Source of the DNA: Mariprofundaceae bacterium
GTDB lineage: Bacteria; Pseudomonadota; Zetaproteobacteria; Mariprofundales; Mariprofundaceae
Assembly: GCA_027018935.1 (NCBI GenBank)
Contig: JALUXZ010000156.1
Span: forward strand, 1 to 51,706
Length of the DNA: 51,706 bases
Direction: 5' to 3'
The translations under genes and the position numbers were made by a program. The notes under the pieces were generated by a model that had not been told where the DNA came from, made no database searches, and saw nothing but the letters and a program-made list of their open reading frames with translations. Position 1 is the first letter of the stretch; every line of letters starts with the position of its first letter. This document shows, one piece after another, positions 21,027 to 32,486 of this stretch.

Positions 21027-21110
21027 GTAGTGGTGAAACAATAAAATCTCGGTGGGTTCTCGGTTATGGTTGCATATTGTTTGCCTTATAAATTTATAAG
21101 GAGAATGTAT

Positions 21111-21605
21111 ATGATCATTAAAAAATGTATTTTAGCGGCTTCTGTGTTGCTGATGGCAGCATTGCCTATGCAAGCACAAGCGGCGGTAGCTACGGGGCAA
21201 ATCAATGTCACAGCAACAACGGTGGCAACAACAGCATTGGTGACAGTGGCAGGTCCTGTAGCCTTTGGTGCATCGTTTGATACGGCAACTGCGGCTGCCA
21301 CTAGCAGCTTTAGTGTAACAGTCTCTAACACATTGCCTTATTCGATTGCGATGGATGGCGGGGCGAATTTTAATGTGGGCACGAATAAAAGTTTCTTGAA
21401 AGATGTGGGTGGATTGAATGCGCGTGAATATATTTTGTATCAGGATGTTGCGAATACGCTTATTTGGGGACCTGCTGGCACAGCTGTAACAGGTTTGACG
21501 GGTACAGGTATTGCGCAAGCATACAATGTGTTCGGTTCATTATTGGCAGCTCCAGGTACTACAGGTGCTGTGAGTGATGTGGTGACGATTACAGTAACAT
21601 ACTGA
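21111..21605 (+). CDS. SCPU-domain (Csu-type) pilin subunit 1
   Basis: Signal peptide ...LPMQAQAA, FGxxFD/SNTLPYSIAMDGG, terminal VSDVVTITVTY; RBS aaggag; ORF track start is 21066. Confidence 0.85.
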   Translation: MIIKKCILAASVLLMAALPMQAQAAVATGQINVTATTVATTALVTVAGPVAFGASFDTATAAATSSFSVTVSNTLPYSIAMDGGANFNVGTNKSFLKDVGGLNAREYILYQDVANTLIWGPAGTAVTGLTGTGIAQAYNVFGSLLAAPGTTGAVSDVVTITVTY

Positions 21606-21667: not shown

Positions 21668-22054
21668 TTACCATTTTCTGTCAATCGCATAGGCATCCAT
21701 GATGCTATCGCATCCTAGAATTGGCATGTGCTCCAGTTTGCTTTGGCTAACCAGCAAACGATCAAAGGGATCGCGGTGATGCCATGGTAGCGATGCGACA
21801 GCCAAGGCATGCGCCGATTCAATATTCAGAATTTGCAGGCCATTGATTTGAATTTGTTCATTGATAATCTGCTCAATAGGCTGCTGGAGCAGTAATTTAC
21901 CAATACTTGTTTTGATAGCCATTTCCCAAATGCTTGCTGTACTCAAGTATAGCTCGTTGCTTGAATCCAGAAACAATGCTTGCGCCGTTTCACTGAGCCG
22001 ATCATCCCATGTAGCAGCCCAGATAAAGGTGTGTGTATCCAGTAATAGTCTCAT
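21668..22054 (-). CDS. PIN-domain toxin (VapC-like)
   Basis: MRLLLDTHTFIWA...RDPFDRLLVSQS PIN signature. Confidence 0.92.
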   Translation of the reverse strand: MRLLLDTHTFIWAATWDDRLSETAQALFLDSSNELYLSTASIWEMAIKTSIGKLLLQQPIEQIINEQIQINGLQILNIESAHALAVASLPWHHRDPFDRLLVSQSKLEHMPILGCDSIMDAYAIDRKW

Positions 22055-22390: not shown

Positions 22391-22678
22391 TTACAGAGGT
22401 TGGGTTTCATCATGATGCCATATTCTTAAAATGGCGAGTGTCTGTGCATGGATTGCATAGCGAATGGTGCAGTTTTCAAATATCATATCCCGAATAATAT
22501 CAGGATTTGGTGCGGAAGGGACGGCTCGACCCATCATCGGCATGCTTTGAAGCATCTGAATACGGCTTATTAACTCTTTGGCTATCCGTTGCGCGGAAAC
22601 AGGGTTGTTTTTAGCAATAAAGTTACGCAGGCGTTGTAAATCTTCAATGGCTTCTTGCGTATAAATGATTTGAATCAT
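22391..22678 (-). CDS. ParE/RelE-family toxin
   Basis: YTQEAIEDLQRLRNFIA...IRDMIFENCTIRYAIHAQTLAILRIWHHDE. Confidence 0.9.
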   Translation of the reverse strand: MIQIIYTQEAIEDLQRLRNFIAKNNPVSAQRIAKELISRIQMLQSMPMMGRAVPSAPNPDIIRDMIFENCTIRYAIHAQTLAILRIWHHDETQPL

Positions 22679-22686
22679 GCGTCTGA

Positions 22687-22959
22687 TTACTTGGGTGTTT
22701 TGGGTGCAGCAAGCTCTTGTTCGCTTCCCCAGCTTTCTAACCAGTGATGGACATGCTCTCCTGATGTGATGTGTCCCGTACGAACGGATTCAAGCGCATC
22801 AAGTGTTTCATTCCAGCGTTGTTGTTCTTGTTTTTGATGCTCAAGAAATTCTTTGATCGCCTGATTGATGATGGAACTTTTTGTTCGGTGCTGGCTTGCG
22901 GCGAGAGTTTCGAGTTGTTTAGAAATTTCGTCTTGTATGCGAACGCTGGTAATCCCCAT
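22687..22959 (-). CDS. Ribbon-helix-helix antitoxin (ParD/CopG-like)
   Basis: SVRIQDEISKQLETLAASQHRTKSSIINQAIKEFLEHQ RHH pattern. Confidence 0.9.
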   Translation of the reverse strand: MGITSVRIQDEISKQLETLAASQHRTKSSIINQAIKEFLEHQKQEQQRWNETLDALESVRTGHITSGEHVHHWLESWGSEQELAAPKTPK

Positions 22960-23010: not shown

Positions 23011-23300
23011 CAATATTTTAAGCCACCTTGATAAGTACATAGGTCTCGTCTCCAAAGCAAATAAACCGAATTTCAAAGTGCGGTGGAAATCAAAGGGTCA
23101 GATTGATATTTAACAATGGTTGTTGCATCTATGTTTATAGCTATATCTTATGAATATAAAAGGTTTAATTAAGAATATGTAAAATCAATCGAGTCTGACC
23201 CCATTGATTTTCGTGATGGCGAATAAAATGAAAAGGTCTCGCTTAGTTCTCGGTTTGGCTGTTTTAGGGTTTGCCCATCTTTCCAGACAAGGAGCGAACC

Positions 23301-23837
23301 ATGAAATTAAAACAATCCATTTTATCAGCAGCCATGCTAATGGCAGCGGCATTGCCGATGCAGGCGCAGGCGGCGACAGCTACGGGGATAATGCAAGTTA
23401 CGGCAAATGTTACCGTGCCTTCGGCTTCAGTTAATGTTGCTGGACCTTTGAACTTTGGCACAGTTTTACAAGGTCAAGTTGGAATGACAACAACTTCATT
23501 TGATGTAACTGTAAGCAATGCTGTTCCCTATAGCATTGCTTTTGGTGCTGGATTATATGGTAACACTGTATTTGTAGTTAAAGACACTACCCAAACACTG
23601 CCAGCATACCCTGGGCAGACGGCTTCTGCGGGCTATTACCTTTACTCGGATAACACAAAAGCGACTGCATATTCACCAGATCCAGCAAATGCTCCTGTGA
23701 TTACGGGTTTAACAGGTAACGGGGCTGCACAGACATACCCATTGTATGCAGAAGTAAAGCCCCTATCGCCAGCCCAAGGTGGTATTTGGGGACCTGGTAC
23801 TTATACAGATACCATCACTATTACAGTGACTTATTAA
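23301..23837 (+). CDS. SCPU-domain (Csu-type) pilin subunit 2
   Basis: Signal peptide LPMQAQAA, VAGPLNFGTVLQG, SNAVPYSIAFGAG, terminal TDTITITVTY. Confidence 0.85.
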   Translation: MKLKQSILSAAMLMAAALPMQAQAATATGIMQVTANVTVPSASVNVAGPLNFGTVLQGQVGMTTTSFDVTVSNAVPYSIAFGAGLYGNTVFVVKDTTQTLPAYPGQTASAGYYLYSDNTKATAYSPDPANAPVITGLTGNGAAQTYPLYAEVKPLSPAQGGIWGPGTYTDTITITVTY

Positions 23838-25366: not shown

Positions 25367-25375
25367 TTGCGATGT

Positions 25376-25654
25376 ATGATAATTAGCTTCACCCACAAAG
25401 GGCTGGAAAGATTTTACAACACTGGAAGCAAGGCTGGTATTCAGGCTAAACATGCTGATAAGTTGCGTCGCATTCTTTCTAATCTTGATGTTGCAAATTG
25501 TGCTAATAATTTGAATTTACCAGCATACCGTTTGCATGAACTTAAAGGCTCTCGTCAAGGGGTTTGGTCGATTACTGTTCAAGCTAATTGGCGTATTACT
25601 TTTTGCTTCTTGGGTGAAGATATTGAGCTTATCAATTATGAAGACTATCACTAA
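25376..25654 (+). CDS. higB: HigB-like toxin (RelE superfamily)
   Basis: ISFTHKGLERFYNTGSKAGIQAKHADKLRRIL...LKGSRQGVWSITVQANWRITFCF. Confidence 0.93.
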   Translation: MIISFTHKGLERFYNTGSKAGIQAKHADKLRRILSNLDVANCANNLNLPAYRLHELKGSRQGVWSITVQANWRITFCFLGEDIELINYEDYH

Positions 25655-25665
25655 GGAGGTCTGCC

Positions 25666-25962
25666 ATGACTATGCATAATCCCGCTCATGCTGGTGAAAT
25701 ATTACGCTATGATGTTCTTGAACCTTTGGGTATAAGTATGAGCGAAGCTGCAAGCAAGCTAGGTATTAGTCGTAAAACCTTATCCAAGATATGCAATGCT
25801 AAGGGTTCTATTACCCCTGATATGGCAGTGCGCCTTGAATTGGCACTTGGTAAACCATCTGCAAACCATTGGTTGAAACTACAGTCTGCTTATGACTTAG
25901 CGAAAGCCAATCAAAATCGCGATCTGCTGCGCAGCCAAGTTCACTTATTATTACCGCAGTAG
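25666..25962 (+). CDS. higA: HigA-like antitoxin (XRE family)
   Basis: NPAHAGEILRYDVLEPLGISMSEAASKLGISRKTLSKICNAKGSITPDMAVRLELALG. Confidence 0.95.
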   Translation: MTMHNPAHAGEILRYDVLEPLGISMSEAASKLGISRKTLSKICNAKGSITPDMAVRLELALGKPSANHWLKLQSAYDLAKANQNRDLLRSQVHLLLPQ

Positions 25963-26501: not shown

Positions 26502-27332
26502 TTATTGATTTAAGATGCTTTGATAGGCTTCTTTTGCGATAGGTGATGGCTTTAGGCCGAATGTTTGCAGCAGTAATGATGCCCAATCTTGATAATAGCG
26601 AATGGCATCATTGCTATAGCCTTCTTGCTGCAAGATATACATGCGTTGGCATAATAGTCGTTCTGAATAGGGATCTATTTCTAAGCCTGCATCCAGTAAA
26701 CTGATAATTTTATGGTGATCCAGGTGTTGTTTTTGCCAAAGGCTGGCGGTTTCATTGATCCAGTTGCAAATGCGTGTATGCCAAGCATGGCGATAGCCAG
26801 AAACAATCGATTCTGATTCACCGCTGAGGAAGCCGCCATGAATCATATGGAGTGCCTGCTGTTCAATGCTATGGGCTTGTGCGTGGCTACCATCTAAATG
26901 CAATGATTTTGCTTGTTTGATGTGGTTATCAAGGTGCCAGGTGTCGATATGGCAATACATGGGGTTTAGGCTTATTTTGCCATGTTGCAGTAGGATAACT
27001 TGGTTTGCTTTTAGATTGTCGGACAGGTGCTTTTGCAGGGTTTGCCGTAGTCGGCGAAGGATAAACTCAAGATTTTGCATGGCTTGATCGGCATCTTGAT
27101 TTGCCCACATGGTATCGCAAATGTAGTGGGTAGGGATATTTCTTCCGCCTGCGGCAACGATCAGCAAAAGTAGCTGGTAAACCCTTGGGCTTTTCCATGT
27201 TTGTACGTCAACAAATTCTCCATGGATGCGGACAGAAAGTTCGCCAAAGCTTGTGATTTGTACAGGGTATTCATCATGGGTTGCATGCAGTTCTGTTAAT
27301 TTTATAACCATGGTTATCTCGCCCTCCAACAT
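26502..27332 (-). CDS. SARP/BTAD-like transcriptional regulator
   Basis: N-terminal wHTH-like TSFGELSVRIHGEFVDVQTWKSPRVYQLLLLIVAAGG, then BTAD-like helical region (LDAGLEIDPYSERLLCQRMYILQQEGYSNDAIRYYQDWASLL). Confidence 0.75.
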   Translation of the reverse strand: MLEGEITMVIKLTELHATHDEYPVQITSFGELSVRIHGEFVDVQTWKSPRVYQLLLLIVAAGGRNIPTHYICDTMWANQDADQAMQNLEFILRRLRQTLQKHLSDNLKANQVILLQHGKISLNPMYCHIDTWHLDNHIKQAKSLHLDGSHAQAHSIEQQALHMIHGGFLSGESESIVSGYRHAWHTRICNWINETASLWQKQHLDHHKIISLLDAGLEIDPYSERLLCQRMYILQQEGYSNDAIRYYQDWASLLLQTFGLKPSPIAKEAYQSILNQ

Positions 27333-27731: not shown

Positions 27732-28247
27732 TTAATAATGCACGGTAACTGTGATGGTATCGCTAAAGTTTCCTGCTTGTGTCGGCAAGGCTTGGAGTTG
27801 ACCATACACTGTGAATACCTGATTTTGACCTGTACCAGTGGATGCTAACGCATTGCCTGCTGTGAATGTATTGCCATAGCCAGAATCGCCCCAAGCGGTT
27901 GTGTATGCAGTGTTTTGATATAAATCATAGGCAATGGTATTGCCAACGGCATTGCGCATGCGGCGTGAACCCAATTTATGCTGCCCTGCATCAAGGGTGA
28001 TATGATACACCTGCGTGGCGACCATATTGATGGTGATGCTGGCGGTGGCCCTTGCTAAGGTATTTTTTGTCGTGGGGACTGTGCCGAAGTTCATGGGGCT
28101 TGTGGATAGTTGTACTTTGGCTGGCACAACAGCGGATACGGCTAGGTTATTCTTGGTTGTGAATGCATGAACTGTGAGGCTATTGAAAGATAAGCAACAG
28201 ATGATGATAAAGCCGTATCGGTATAGAGCAGGTGTAGAAAAAGGCAT
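27732..28247 (-). CDS. SCPU-domain (Csu-type) pilin subunit 3
   Basis: STSPMNFGTVPTTKNT, YHITLDAGQHKLGSRRMRNA, DLYQNTAYTTAWGDSG, NFSDTITVTVHY. Confidence 0.92.
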   Translation of the reverse strand: MPFSTPALYRYGFIIICCLSFNSLTVHAFTTKNNLAVSAVVPAKVQLSTSPMNFGTVPTTKNTLARATASITINMVATQVYHITLDAGQHKLGSRRMRNAVGNTIAYDLYQNTAYTTAWGDSGYGNTFTAGNALASTGTGQNQVFTVYGQLQALPTQAGNFSDTITVTVHY

Positions 28248-28533: not shown

Positions 28534-28640
28534 AATAATTCAAAAGATAACCTGATACAACCGAGTTTCTACCGAGATACACAACTCGGTAGAAACTCGG
28601 TTACCTTATTATACCTTTGCCACATTCAAGGAGTAAAGCG

Positions 28641-29420
28641 ATGATAAATAAGTTTGTATATATTGTATTGTGTATATTTTGGAGTGGTATGGCAGCAGCT
28701 TCGCCTTTTCAGGTTACGCCCATGCGCTTGGAGTTAGAATCTGGTAGCAATATCGGCAGTGTAACGGTATTCAATTCGGGTGATGAGGCATTGGATGTGC
28801 AGGTGAAAGCTGCGGCATGGTCTCAAGATAGCCAAACAGGTGCAGATGTTCTTGAACCGACAAAAGAGCTTATTTTCTTTCCTAAAATTTTTAAAGTGCC
28901 AGCGCATGGAAGTCAGGATGTTCGCGTAGGTTATCAGGGTGAAGTGAAGGGTCATGAGCGTAGTTATCGCTTATTTATTCGTGAATTGCCCGTGAAAAAG
29001 CCTGGTTTGTCGGGAGCGCAATTTGTGTTGCAAATCAGTATGCCTGTATTTATTTATCCAAAAGGTAGTGAGAAGCCGCGCACACCTGATATGCGGGGTG
29101 TTCAGGTGCATGATGGGCAGCTAATGCTTGAAGCTGTGAATGAATCATCACGTTATTATTCATTGAATAAAATTGAAGTGATCGGGAAACATGATGGCAA
29201 GGAAGTTTTAAGCGATGAGAAGTCAGGTTGGTATGTACTGTCTGGGTCTAAACGTTTGTTTCCACTGGGAATTGATCAAGCACAATGCTTGAAAATGGAT
29301 GCGTTGCAATTAACAGGTCATGTGTTGTTAGCGCAGAGCGAGGAGGGTGATACAAGCCAAGTGTTATTCCCATTAACATCGGCGTTATGCAAGCAAATTC
29401 ACCCCCAGCAATCCAAGTAA
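28641..29420 (+). CDS. Periplasmic pilus chaperone (PapD/CsuC-like)
   Basis: FQVTPMRLELESGSNIGSVTVFNSGDEALDVQVKAAAWSQ...FFPKIFKVPAHGSQDVRVGY; ORF track start 28617. Confidence 0.94.
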   Translation: MINKFVYIVLCIFWSGMAAASPFQVTPMRLELESGSNIGSVTVFNSGDEALDVQVKAAAWSQDSQTGADVLEPTKELIFFPKIFKVPAHGSQDVRVGYQGEVKGHERSYRLFIRELPVKKPGLSGAQFVLQISMPVFIYPKGSEKPRTPDMRGVQVHDGQLMLEAVNESSRYYSLNKIEVIGKHDGKEVLSDEKSGWYVLSGSKRLFPLGIDQAQCLKMDALQLTGHVLLAQSEEGDTSQVLFPLTSALCKQIHPQQSK

Positions 29421-29441: not shown

Positions 29442-32039
29442 ATGAAAAAAACATGTATTTTGTTCTGCCTGTTCTTTTGGGTGGTAAATGCTTATGCGCA
29501 AGCTGATAAGCAATGGGCTATAGAGATTTTGCATTTTTATCATGATGATTTCGCCCAGAGTTTGGTGGATGATTTGCATGAAAAGGGCTTGCAAGCACAA
29601 TCCTATTTGAAGGATCATAATCAATATATAGTGGTATTATCAGGCTTTGATAGTTATGAGCTAGCCTTGCAAGCTCGGAATACCCTGCTGCATAAAACAT
29701 CCATGAAAGAAGCTGATATAAAGCTGACAACCCAACAGTATCATAAAGAAAAATCGGTGAAGCATCTTGATGTTAAAAAAATAGAGCAGCATGAAACAGT
29801 AATTGTGCATATTTTTCTTAATGGTAGCGATGCAGGCACGCATTTTGTTGATAAAACAACCGATGATTTTTTCTTGACGGGCACGTTTCTGAAAAAAATA
29901 GGGGTGTATGTCTTACCAAAAGAGCTTGGTGAATCAAAGCTTGTAGCGCTTCATTCTTTGCATGATTGGTTAAGTTATACACTGGATGCGCAAACAGGCG
30001 ATTTATTGTTAACAGTGAATCCAGAATTATTGCCAAAGCAAGAGAAAAGCCTTTTGGTGAAACGTAATTCCAGTGCAACTTGGATACAAAGTGATGCCTT
30101 ATTTCTTAATTATACCTTGGATTATACGGCAAACCCTAGGGGGGTGGATGTATTCACTGCGCCGCTTGAACTTGGTTTGAGTTTAGCTGGATCATCATTG
30201 GTCAGTCAGTTTGTTTATAATAAGCAGTTATATCGAAGTAAAACCCAATGGGTGTATGATGAAAAAGATCGTTTGCAGCGCTGGGTTGCTGGGGATATAC
30301 AGGCATCTGCTGGGGCAGGTATTGGTGGAGCATCATTGGCTGGGTTGCGCGTATTTAAGAATTTTTCATTGGATCAAAACTTGGTGACATCTCCAGGTTT
30401 GGAAACCCATATTTTGCTGGATACAGCCTCTACAGTTGAGGTGTTTATGGATGGGATGTCTGTTTATAAAGGTGATTTTCCTGCGGGTGAATTGAATTTA
30501 AAAGATATACCTTTTTATCGCAGTGGAAGCATTCAGGCAGAGTTGATTGTGCGTGATTCTTTTGGTCGGGAGAAACATTACAATCAATTGCTTTATGGCT
30601 CGGTAGGTATGCTGGCAGAGGGTTTGAGTGAATATGATTATGCCTTGGGTGTGGAGCGTATAAATACAGGCATAGCATCACCAACGTATGGTAAGAATGT
30701 GCTACTTTATGGGCATTACCGCTATGGTTTTAGTAACTGGTTTTCTCCTTCAATGGGTGTGGAAAGTAATGGGAAATATGGTCGTTTAAGTTTTGGAGGT
30801 AGTGTTCTTTTGAGGGCGTATGGGCAATTGGATGCACTTGTTGCTGCGAGTAGTTTGAAGCAAGGAAAAGGGAACTTTTTCCAATTTAATTATAACTATG
30901 CGGGATCAGAAATATTTTCGCCGAGTATCTTCTTTCATACACAATCACTTGCTTATGGTGGCATTTTAGATGTACCTGCAAGCACAGAGAGTAAGCATCA
31001 AGCGTTTGGTGGAAGTATATCGACATATTATCAAGAGCTTGGAGGTTTGACTGCCCGCTGGACTCAATCAGAAGATTATGTGAAAAATAAGACGCAAACA
31101 GGCGAATTAGTGTTTAATACCAATTTTCCTGGAAATATTTCGCTGACAACACAATTTTTGCGTACGTGGGATCCCCAGAAAGCACCCGCGAACCAAGTTT
31201 CAGCTTCATTGGGGCATAGCTTTAGCAATGGTTTGTATTTCTCTGCGAATTATAGCTCTAGTGCGACTGTGGATACGATTGGGTTGCAATTACAATGGAG
31301 CCCTCCTTTGGGTGAAGGCTTTGGCTTTACGGAAAATATCAACCAACAAAGTGCATCTGATCCTTCAACTTATTCACGCGTAGAATATCGAAATCAATAT
31401 GCCGATGTATCGGCAAGTGCTAGAACAGGTAAGCAAACAGAATCGTATCAGGCGCAGCTTAATAGTGCTTTTGTATGGACAGAAGGCGGCTTACATGTGA
31501 GTCGTCCTGTGCGTGATGGTTTCGCGTTGGTGCGTGTGAATGGTGTGAAAGGTGGTATGAAAGTGAATATTAGAAATCAGTATATTGGTAAGACGGATAG
31601 TAATGGCGAGTTAATTGTACCCTATCTGAATGCCTATACGGATAATGTGATTGATATTAAGCCTGAACATGTTTCGCTGGGTTATCGTATACCGAAAACA
31701 TCGCAAACGGTGACAACTGCTTATCGTAGTGGCGGCTTGGTGGAATTTGATGTGGTGAAATTGCAGATGGTGGAAGCCACTGTTTTTTATCAAGTAGGAG
31801 ATAAATTAAAAGCTGCTCAGTATTCCACTGTGGCGTTTATGCAGGATGGTAAGAAGAAAAGTACAGTGCTTGGTGATGATGGGGCACTGTATTTGGAGAA
31901 CTTGAAGGCTGGAATCTATACGCTAACAGTCTTTGATGATGTGCACCAATGCCATGTTGATATACAAGTTCCAGATTCAGATGATATGGTGAATAATCTT
32001 GGGCGTATTGTCTGTGTTGTGGATGAAGTTAGAAAATAG
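29442..32039 (+). CDS. Archaic outer-membrane usher (CsuD-like) with N-terminal SPOR-like domain
   Basis: Usher NTD (VHIFLNGSDAGTHFV), plug/barrel motifs (FMDGMSVYKGDFPAGELNLKDIPFYRSGSIQAELIVRDSFGREKHYNQLLYGS), C-terminal beta domains. Confidence 0.93.
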   Translation: MKKTCILFCLFFWVVNAYAQADKQWAIEILHFYHDDFAQSLVDDLHEKGLQAQSYLKDHNQYIVVLSGFDSYELALQARNTLLHKTSMKEADIKLTTQQYHKEKSVKHLDVKKIEQHETVIVHIFLNGSDAGTHFVDKTTDDFFLTGTFLKKIGVYVLPKELGESKLVALHSLHDWLSYTLDAQTGDLLLTVNPELLPKQEKSLLVKRNSSATWIQSDALFLNYTLDYTANPRGVDVFTAPLELGLSLAGSSLVSQFVYNKQLYRSKTQWVYDEKDRLQRWVAGDIQASAGAGIGGASLAGLRVFKNFSLDQNLVTSPGLETHILLDTASTVEVFMDGMSVYKGDFPAGELNLKDIPFYRSGSIQAELIVRDSFGREKHYNQLLYGSVGMLAEGLSEYDYALGVERINTGIASPTYGKNVLLYGHYRYGFSNWFSPSMGVESNGKYGRLSFGGSVLLRAYGQLDALVAASSLKQGKGNFFQFNYNYAGSEIFSPSIFFHTQSLAYGGILDVPASTESKHQAFGGSISTYYQELGGLTARWTQSEDYVKNKTQTGELVFNTNFPGNISLTTQFLRTWDPQKAPANQVSASLGHSFSNGLYFSANYSSSATVDTIGLQLQWSPPLGEGFGFTENINQQSASDPSTYSRVEYRNQYADVSASARTGKQTESYQAQLNSAFVWTEGGLHVSRPVRDGFALVRVNGVKGGMKVNIRNQYIGKTDSNGELIVPYLNAYTDNVIDIKPEHVSLGYRIPKTSQTVTTAYRSGGLVEFDVVKLQMVEATVFYQVGDKLKAAQYSTVAFMQDGKKKSTVLGDDGALYLENLKAGIYTLTVFDDVHQCHVDIQVPDSDDMVNNLGRIVCVVDEVRK

Positions 32040-32045
32040 GAGGGT

Positions 32046-32486
32046 ATGATGTTGAATACATTGAAATTACTTTTATGGGTTGGGGCTATTTTTGTGCCTT
32101 CGATACTGCATGCTGCTGGTTTTATTACGCCTCGATGTAGTGTCAGTACAACGCCACTTAATTTTGGCATTTATTGGGGAACATCAACATTGGTTTCTAC
32201 AGCAAAGATTGTTGTTTCTTGTAATCTTCCAGCAACAACACGAGTTCAAATGGATGCTGGGCTTCATAGCTTTAATTTTGCAACCAGAAAGATGATATTC
32301 AACCAGAAAACACTCAATTATAACCTGTATACCAATGCTTCTCGCAGTAATGTATGGGGTGATGGCACTGGGGGAACTTGGACGGTGACGGGAAGTCAGT
32401 TGACTGTGCATGCAAGTATACCTGGTGGTCAGGTAGTTACGCCTGGAACATATAATGATACTGTGGTTGTGACTGTTATTTGGTAA
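32046..32486 (+). CDS. SCPU-domain subunit 4 (possible tip/minor subunit)
   Basis: CSVSTTPLNFGIYWG, KIVVSCNLPATTRVQMDAG, NLYTNASRSNVWGDGTGG, GTYNDTVVVTVIW. Confidence 0.92.
   Translation: MMLNTLKLLLWVGAIFVPSILHAAGFITPRCSVSTTPLNFGIYWGTSTLVSTAKIVVSCNLPATTRVQMDAGLHSFNFATRKMIFNQKTLNYNLYTNASRSNVWGDGTGGTWTVTGSQLTVHASIPGGQVVTPGTYNDTVVVTVIW

Follow-up and report, generated by a model that had tools for sequence, protein, structure and literature searches.

An 865-aa archaic usher (29442-32039, + strand) is encoded in the window, that is, in the whole stretch of 51,706 nucleotides of Mariprofundaceae DNA analysed here. The source is marine and belongs to a group of iron oxidisers. The N-terminal extension of this usher is homologous to SPOR domains and has the SPOR fold, as shown by computation. 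The protein is a composite: its signal peptide is followed by a domain of the SPOR family, then by a short flexible linker, and then by an otherwise ordinary archaic usher with its N-terminal chaperone-docking domain, barrel and C-terminal domains.

Domain organization of the usher

The signal peptide (residues 1-19, 29442-29498; MKKTCILFCLFFWVVNAYA followed by Q, by eye from the translation) is separated from the periplasmic N-terminal domain of the usher (residues 118-194, 29793-30023) by an extension of ~98 residues (20-117). About 75 of these form the SPOR-family domain (residues 22-98, 29505-29735), identified with PF05036, hhalign and AF2/Foldseek, and the linker occupies residues 99-117 (29736-29792). 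The initial annotation had described ~75 extra residues; the sequence that it quoted is exact, but the full extension is longer by the linker. The barrel and plug (residues 328-760, 30423-31721) were assigned with Pfam Usher (PF00577) at 82.4 bits against a cut-off of 27.1, which places the protein in the usher family. All of these features are on the + strand.

AlphaFold modelling of residues 20-235 gave a beta-alpha-beta-beta-alpha-beta domain, a low-confidence linker and the usher N-terminal domain. The linker, between two well-predicted domains, includes the lowest-confidence part of the AF2 model (pLDDT below 50 at model residues 84-93). When the two-domain model was searched with Foldseek, the N-terminal domains of Caf1A and FimD were the top matches, and the SPOR domains of CwlC, DedD and RlpA were also retrieved. 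The assignment of the usher N-terminal domain is based on the Caf1A and FimD matches and on the alignment of orthologs.

Two trivial explanations of the extension were considered. It is not merely an extended usher N-terminal domain, as a complete usher domain follows the linker, and the extension is predicted to fold independently. An assembly artefact or chimera is unlikely, since the frame is single and unbroken, the base composition shows no break (G+C 38.9% in the SPOR part and 38.7% in the usher N-terminal domain) and the architecture is also found in a separate MAG. The estimated contamination of the MAG that holds the window is 7.8%.

Sequence and structural evidence for the SPOR domain

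PF05036 was the top Pfam match of the usher N-terminus, close to the cut-off of 21. The score was 17.8 bits with the whole protein as query, 20.9 with residues 1-136, 22.2 with residues 20-105 and 21.7 in the whole-genome search. Membership of the family is thus reached at the curated cut-off, borderline when taken alone and below 21 (17.8-20.9) with longer queries. In profile-profile comparison (hhalign), the two usher copies of the domain aligned with a set of eight SPOR domains from the class with a score of 61.4 and a probability of 97.3%, and 200 column shuffles of the usher-copy profile reached maxima of 16.6 in score and 2.2% in probability. Five copies from outer-membrane exporters, described below, gave 98.0% against the same set and no more than 13.1% in 200 column shuffles, and their profile retrieved ordinary SPOR proteins of the class as well as CwlC in the PDB. 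A single-sequence search of solved structures gave chance-level matches only.

The SPOR domain modelled alone, by AF2 with two input sequences only, had a mean pLDDT of 84.6. Its top PDB match was the SPOR domain of CwlC (TM 0.75/0.80, 1.8 A), and the SPOR domain of RlpA was matched with TM 0.66/0.72; non-SPOR structures among the 50 matches listed did not exceed TM 0.54. The Foldseek E-values were weak (0.004), as is usual for so small a domain, and the SPOR claim is therefore carried by the TM-scores and the sequence evidence. The initial annotation had recognized a SPOR domain fused to an archaic usher by eye, and had called for a PF05036 profile search and an AlphaFold model of the N-terminus. 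Both the assignment and the fusion are borne out by the Pfam score of residues 20-105, the profile-profile alignment, the model with its SPOR fold (pLDDT ~85) and match to CwlC, and a second usher of like architecture.

Distribution of the SPOR domain among ushers

In a sample of 78 genomes of the class, a related usher was present in 7. The two closest orthologs (65% and 62% identity) are without the SPOR domain, which is thus accessory. The domain has not been overlooked in them, as the usher frame begins immediately after the end of the chaperone frame (L002, L003), with no space for it in between. In the ushers of two further genomes, G106 and G021, the place of the SPOR domain is taken by a Pro/Ala- or Ser-rich stretch. 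A SPOR domain is found at the same place in an usher of only ~30% identity from a Mariprofundus MAG (G109, JAUZQK010000076.1; L025 = L030), at 18.3 bits across nearly the whole Pfam model. The initial annotation had proposed a search for the same architecture elsewhere, which thus yielded one more case, and had regarded lack of conservation in orthologs as grounds for rejection. On that point the outcome is divided: the nearest relatives lack the domain and the distant Mariprofundus usher has it.

The six ushers from Zetaproteobacteria make up a single clade in the usher tree (100/99). SPOR is present in two of the six, and its distribution requires at least two changes: either two gains, or one gain and several losses. 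A scan of named genomes found nothing with a single sequence and 31 loci when repeated with an alignment; these loci make up the survey outside Pseudomonadota. A screen with the SPOR model, run over ~95 distinct usher frames drawn from several phyla, showed the domain in only two, so a widespread SPOR-usher architecture is not indicated. The fusion is rare and patchy.

Ushers with other extensions were also noticed. Two from Desulfuromonadales (L037 4153-7401, L039 1120-4161) have ~185 extra C-terminal residues. An usher of genome G235 (L095 276-3677, + strand) has two N-terminal AMIN domains (Pfam, 35.2 bits) and a proline-rich linker, and in a second species of that genus (G471) the same gene is split over two contigs (L144, L145).

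Related SPOR domains on other outer-membrane proteins

The SPOR part of the usher profile also matched other proteins of the family, two of them of unusual architecture. A TolC-like protein of genome G105 (L088 1785-3656, - strand) has an N-terminal SPOR domain (21.9 bits) and matches Pfam OEP at 132 bits; a membrane-fusion protein gene comes after it. Its counterpart in G106 (L131 2498-4069, - strand) is cut by the contig end and is followed by genes for a membrane-fusion protein and an ABC ATPase; the TolC-like protein with N-terminal SPOR, in a TolC-MFP(-MacB) operon, is thus seen in two genomes. A 957-aa protein of G106 (L090 2-2872, - strand) has two N-terminal SPOR domains (50 bits) and a long barrel-like remainder with no significant Pfam match.

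The SPOR-bearing exporters (ushers, TolC-like and barrel-like) are all from Mariprofundaceae. When 42 SPOR domains of the class were placed in a tree, the complete exporter copies, five in number, clustered together (82/80 support), a grouping recovered in 83% of 200 bootstrap trees and in none of 500 label shuffles. The evidence that they form one group is moderate, because the alignment has just 79 columns. No further member scoring like the exporter SPORs was found in a 399-genome sample of the phylum. In five long SPOR-bearing frames read outside the class, the SPOR domain is of the ordinary C-terminal kind, and two of these frames encode secretin-like proteins (GspD-type by eye; L168 2-2083, + strand, G082, and L169 2-2224, + strand, G297).

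Glycan-binding residues

The glycan site of RlpA comprises Q270, main-chain contacts around A273-N276, F274 and the patch R302/R309/R311; loss of all three arginines strongly lowers binding, and much of the glycan is bound via the main chain (PMC6895207). These positions were mapped onto the window SPOR through the RlpA-like protein of the same genome (L020), by sequence alignment and not by structural superposition. Q270 is replaced by Glu, A273 by His, R309 by Ile and R311 by Val; F274 is Phe, and no basic residue aligns with R302. The net charge of the domain is -5. Gln/Asn at 270 and Arg at 309 are absent from all five exporter SPORs, whereas each is kept in 32 of 37 ordinary SPORs of the class (Fisher p = 0.0003, which overstates the evidence because the exporter copies are related to one another). 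Arg at 311 is kept in three of the five. The exporter SPORs share an acidic residue at the Gln position (His in one), and most have an L..T-[TSN]-[IML] segment after helix 2.

With these recognition residues gone, peptidoglycan binding is not implied by the sequence. The initial annotation had linked the domain to glycan-denuded peptidoglycan at division septa; such canonical septal targeting is not supported, as Q270 and the arginine patch are replaced and the copy is net acidic.

Possible role of the SPOR domain

It appears moderately probable that the diverged SPOR domain acts as an N-terminal periplasmic anchoring or docking module without canonical glycan binding. After export, the domain would hang in the periplasm from the usher mouth, and would hold or position the platform for pilus assembly with respect to the cell wall, or to a partner associated with the wall, in the manner of the AMIN domains of PilQ. 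Since it retains the fold and the subfamily motif but not the residues that recognise denuded glycan, its ligand is probably not the canonical denuded septal glycan. The ligand could be another peptidoglycan feature, or a periplasmic protein common to the exporters with the same SPOR subfamily. A general role in anchoring or positioning the usher is possible.

A canonical SPOR domain, which would bind glycan-denuded peptidoglycan and recruit the usher to the division septum or young poles, would agree with the predicted fold and with the aromatic retained at the F274 position. The main-chain contacts that account for much of glycan binding in RlpA (PMC6895207), and the N or V that is common at the Gln position in SPORs of the class, also leave room for it. 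The replaced glutamine and arginines of the window copy, its acidic charge and the consistent loss of two of these residues from the exporter SPORs make it quite unlikely nonetheless. The loss of binding residues would suit a neutral relic or spacer, that is, a SPOR cassette gained by recombination at the usher N-terminus that has degenerated, is on its way to being lost and has no part in binding; its presence in a minority of the clade, and the two or more changes that the tree requires, point the same way. Against mere decay speak the intact fold, predicted with good confidence, and the motif after helix 2, which together with the shared acidic residue (His in one) suggests constraint. The domain is moreover at the same position in two distant ushers, and we consider a relic unlikely.

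The domain directly precedes the chaperone-docking domain, with ~19 linker residues between them, and it might act on the usher or the chaperone-subunit complex (e.g. in gating or extra docking) and not on the wall. The same subfamily is seen, however, on outer-membrane proteins that work without pilus chaperones, the TolC-like ones among them, and such an assembly-side role is very unlikely. The anchoring or docking module might be shared more widely: a SPOR-derived subfamily that has lost denuded-glycan binding may be a common N-terminal docking module of Mariprofundaceae outer-membrane exporters (archaic ushers, TolC-like and barrel-like proteins). This extension of the proposal is tentative and, judged from the data at hand, rather doubtful. 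If true, a shared docking module would link several kinds of export machine to a single common partner or site in the envelope.

Comparison with known systems

Ushers are generally regarded as stand-alone platforms of the outer membrane, for which no link to the cell wall is required. The window usher resembles the CsuD-type archaic ushers of Csu pili in its Usher barrel, its FimD/Caf1A-like N-terminal domain, its PapD-type chaperone and its SCPU cluster. To our knowledge, no SPOR domain is known on CsuD-type ushers, and the nearest relatives of the window usher are also without one. With RlpA, FtsN, DamX, DedD and CwlC, the window SPOR shares sequence homology and the beta-alpha-beta-beta-alpha-beta fold; in those proteins, however, the domain is usually C-terminal and has the denuded-glycan residues, whereas here it is N-terminal and they are replaced.

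Legionella LspD is a T2SS secretin with an N-terminal SPOR (PMC9239104, PMC6617341). Like the window usher, it is an outer-membrane secretion channel with a SPOR-type domain before the periplasmic docking domain; unlike it, LspD is a type II secretin ring and not a chaperone-usher platform, and the two are likened by description, not by sequence. In the window usher, Pfam detects Usher and no secretin domains, so it does not belong to an LspD-like class. PilQ, the outer-membrane pore of a pilus machine, likewise has an N-terminal module: its AMIN domains bind peptidoglycan, and the polar/midcell localisation of the machine depends on them (PMC5285504). Here, however, the module is AMIN and not SPOR, and the pili are type IV.

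What is new is the SPOR domain on an usher, as peptidoglycan-binding domains are already known on other outer-membrane channels (LspD, PilQ). No description of a SPOR-usher or an AMIN-usher fusion was found in the literature covered, from which most subscription journals are absent; to that extent, the remark of the initial annotation that no SPOR-usher fusion had been described holds. The AMIN ushers belong to an unrelated genus, of another bacterial family than the SPOR ushers, and the AMIN domains on ushers are an independent parallel to the SPOR fusion. The occurrence of SPOR in one lineage of ushers, and of AMIN in a second, suggests that anchoring or positioning in the envelope, as in secretins, extends to some ushers. 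This raises the question whether an anchored usher alters where, or how firmly, the pilus is held, and the loss of glycan-binding residues offers a natural case for what else the SPOR fold can bind.

The pilus gene cluster

The usher lies in a small archaic chaperone-usher cluster, with a PapD-type chaperone and SCPU subunits alongside. The periplasmic pilus chaperone is encoded directly upstream (28617-29420, + strand; PF00345 PapD_N, 49.2 bits). The SCPU subunit after the usher (32046-32486, + strand; PF05229, 84.1 bits) is possibly the tip subunit, as its N-terminal donor-strand extension is absent by eye. A divergently transcribed SCPU subunit (27732-28247, - strand; PF05229, 70.9 bits) has an N-terminal extension. 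A BTAD/SARP-type transcriptional regulator (26502-27332, - strand; PF03704, 55.6 bits) adjoins the pilus genes and, judged from this position alone, may be connected with the pilus.

Two further SCPU-like subunit genes lie upstream of the cluster, at 21066-21605 (by eye) and 23271-23837 (PF05229, 43.8 bits). Scattered between the subunit genes are a PIN-type protein and two toxin-antitoxin-like pairs, RelE/ParD-like and HigB/HigA-like (21668-22054, - strand; 22391-22959, - strand; 25367-25962, + strand; by eye). An inverted repeat, CCGAGTTTCTACCGAG...CTCGGTAGAAACTCGG, is present at ~28561-28602, just 5' of the chaperone gene.
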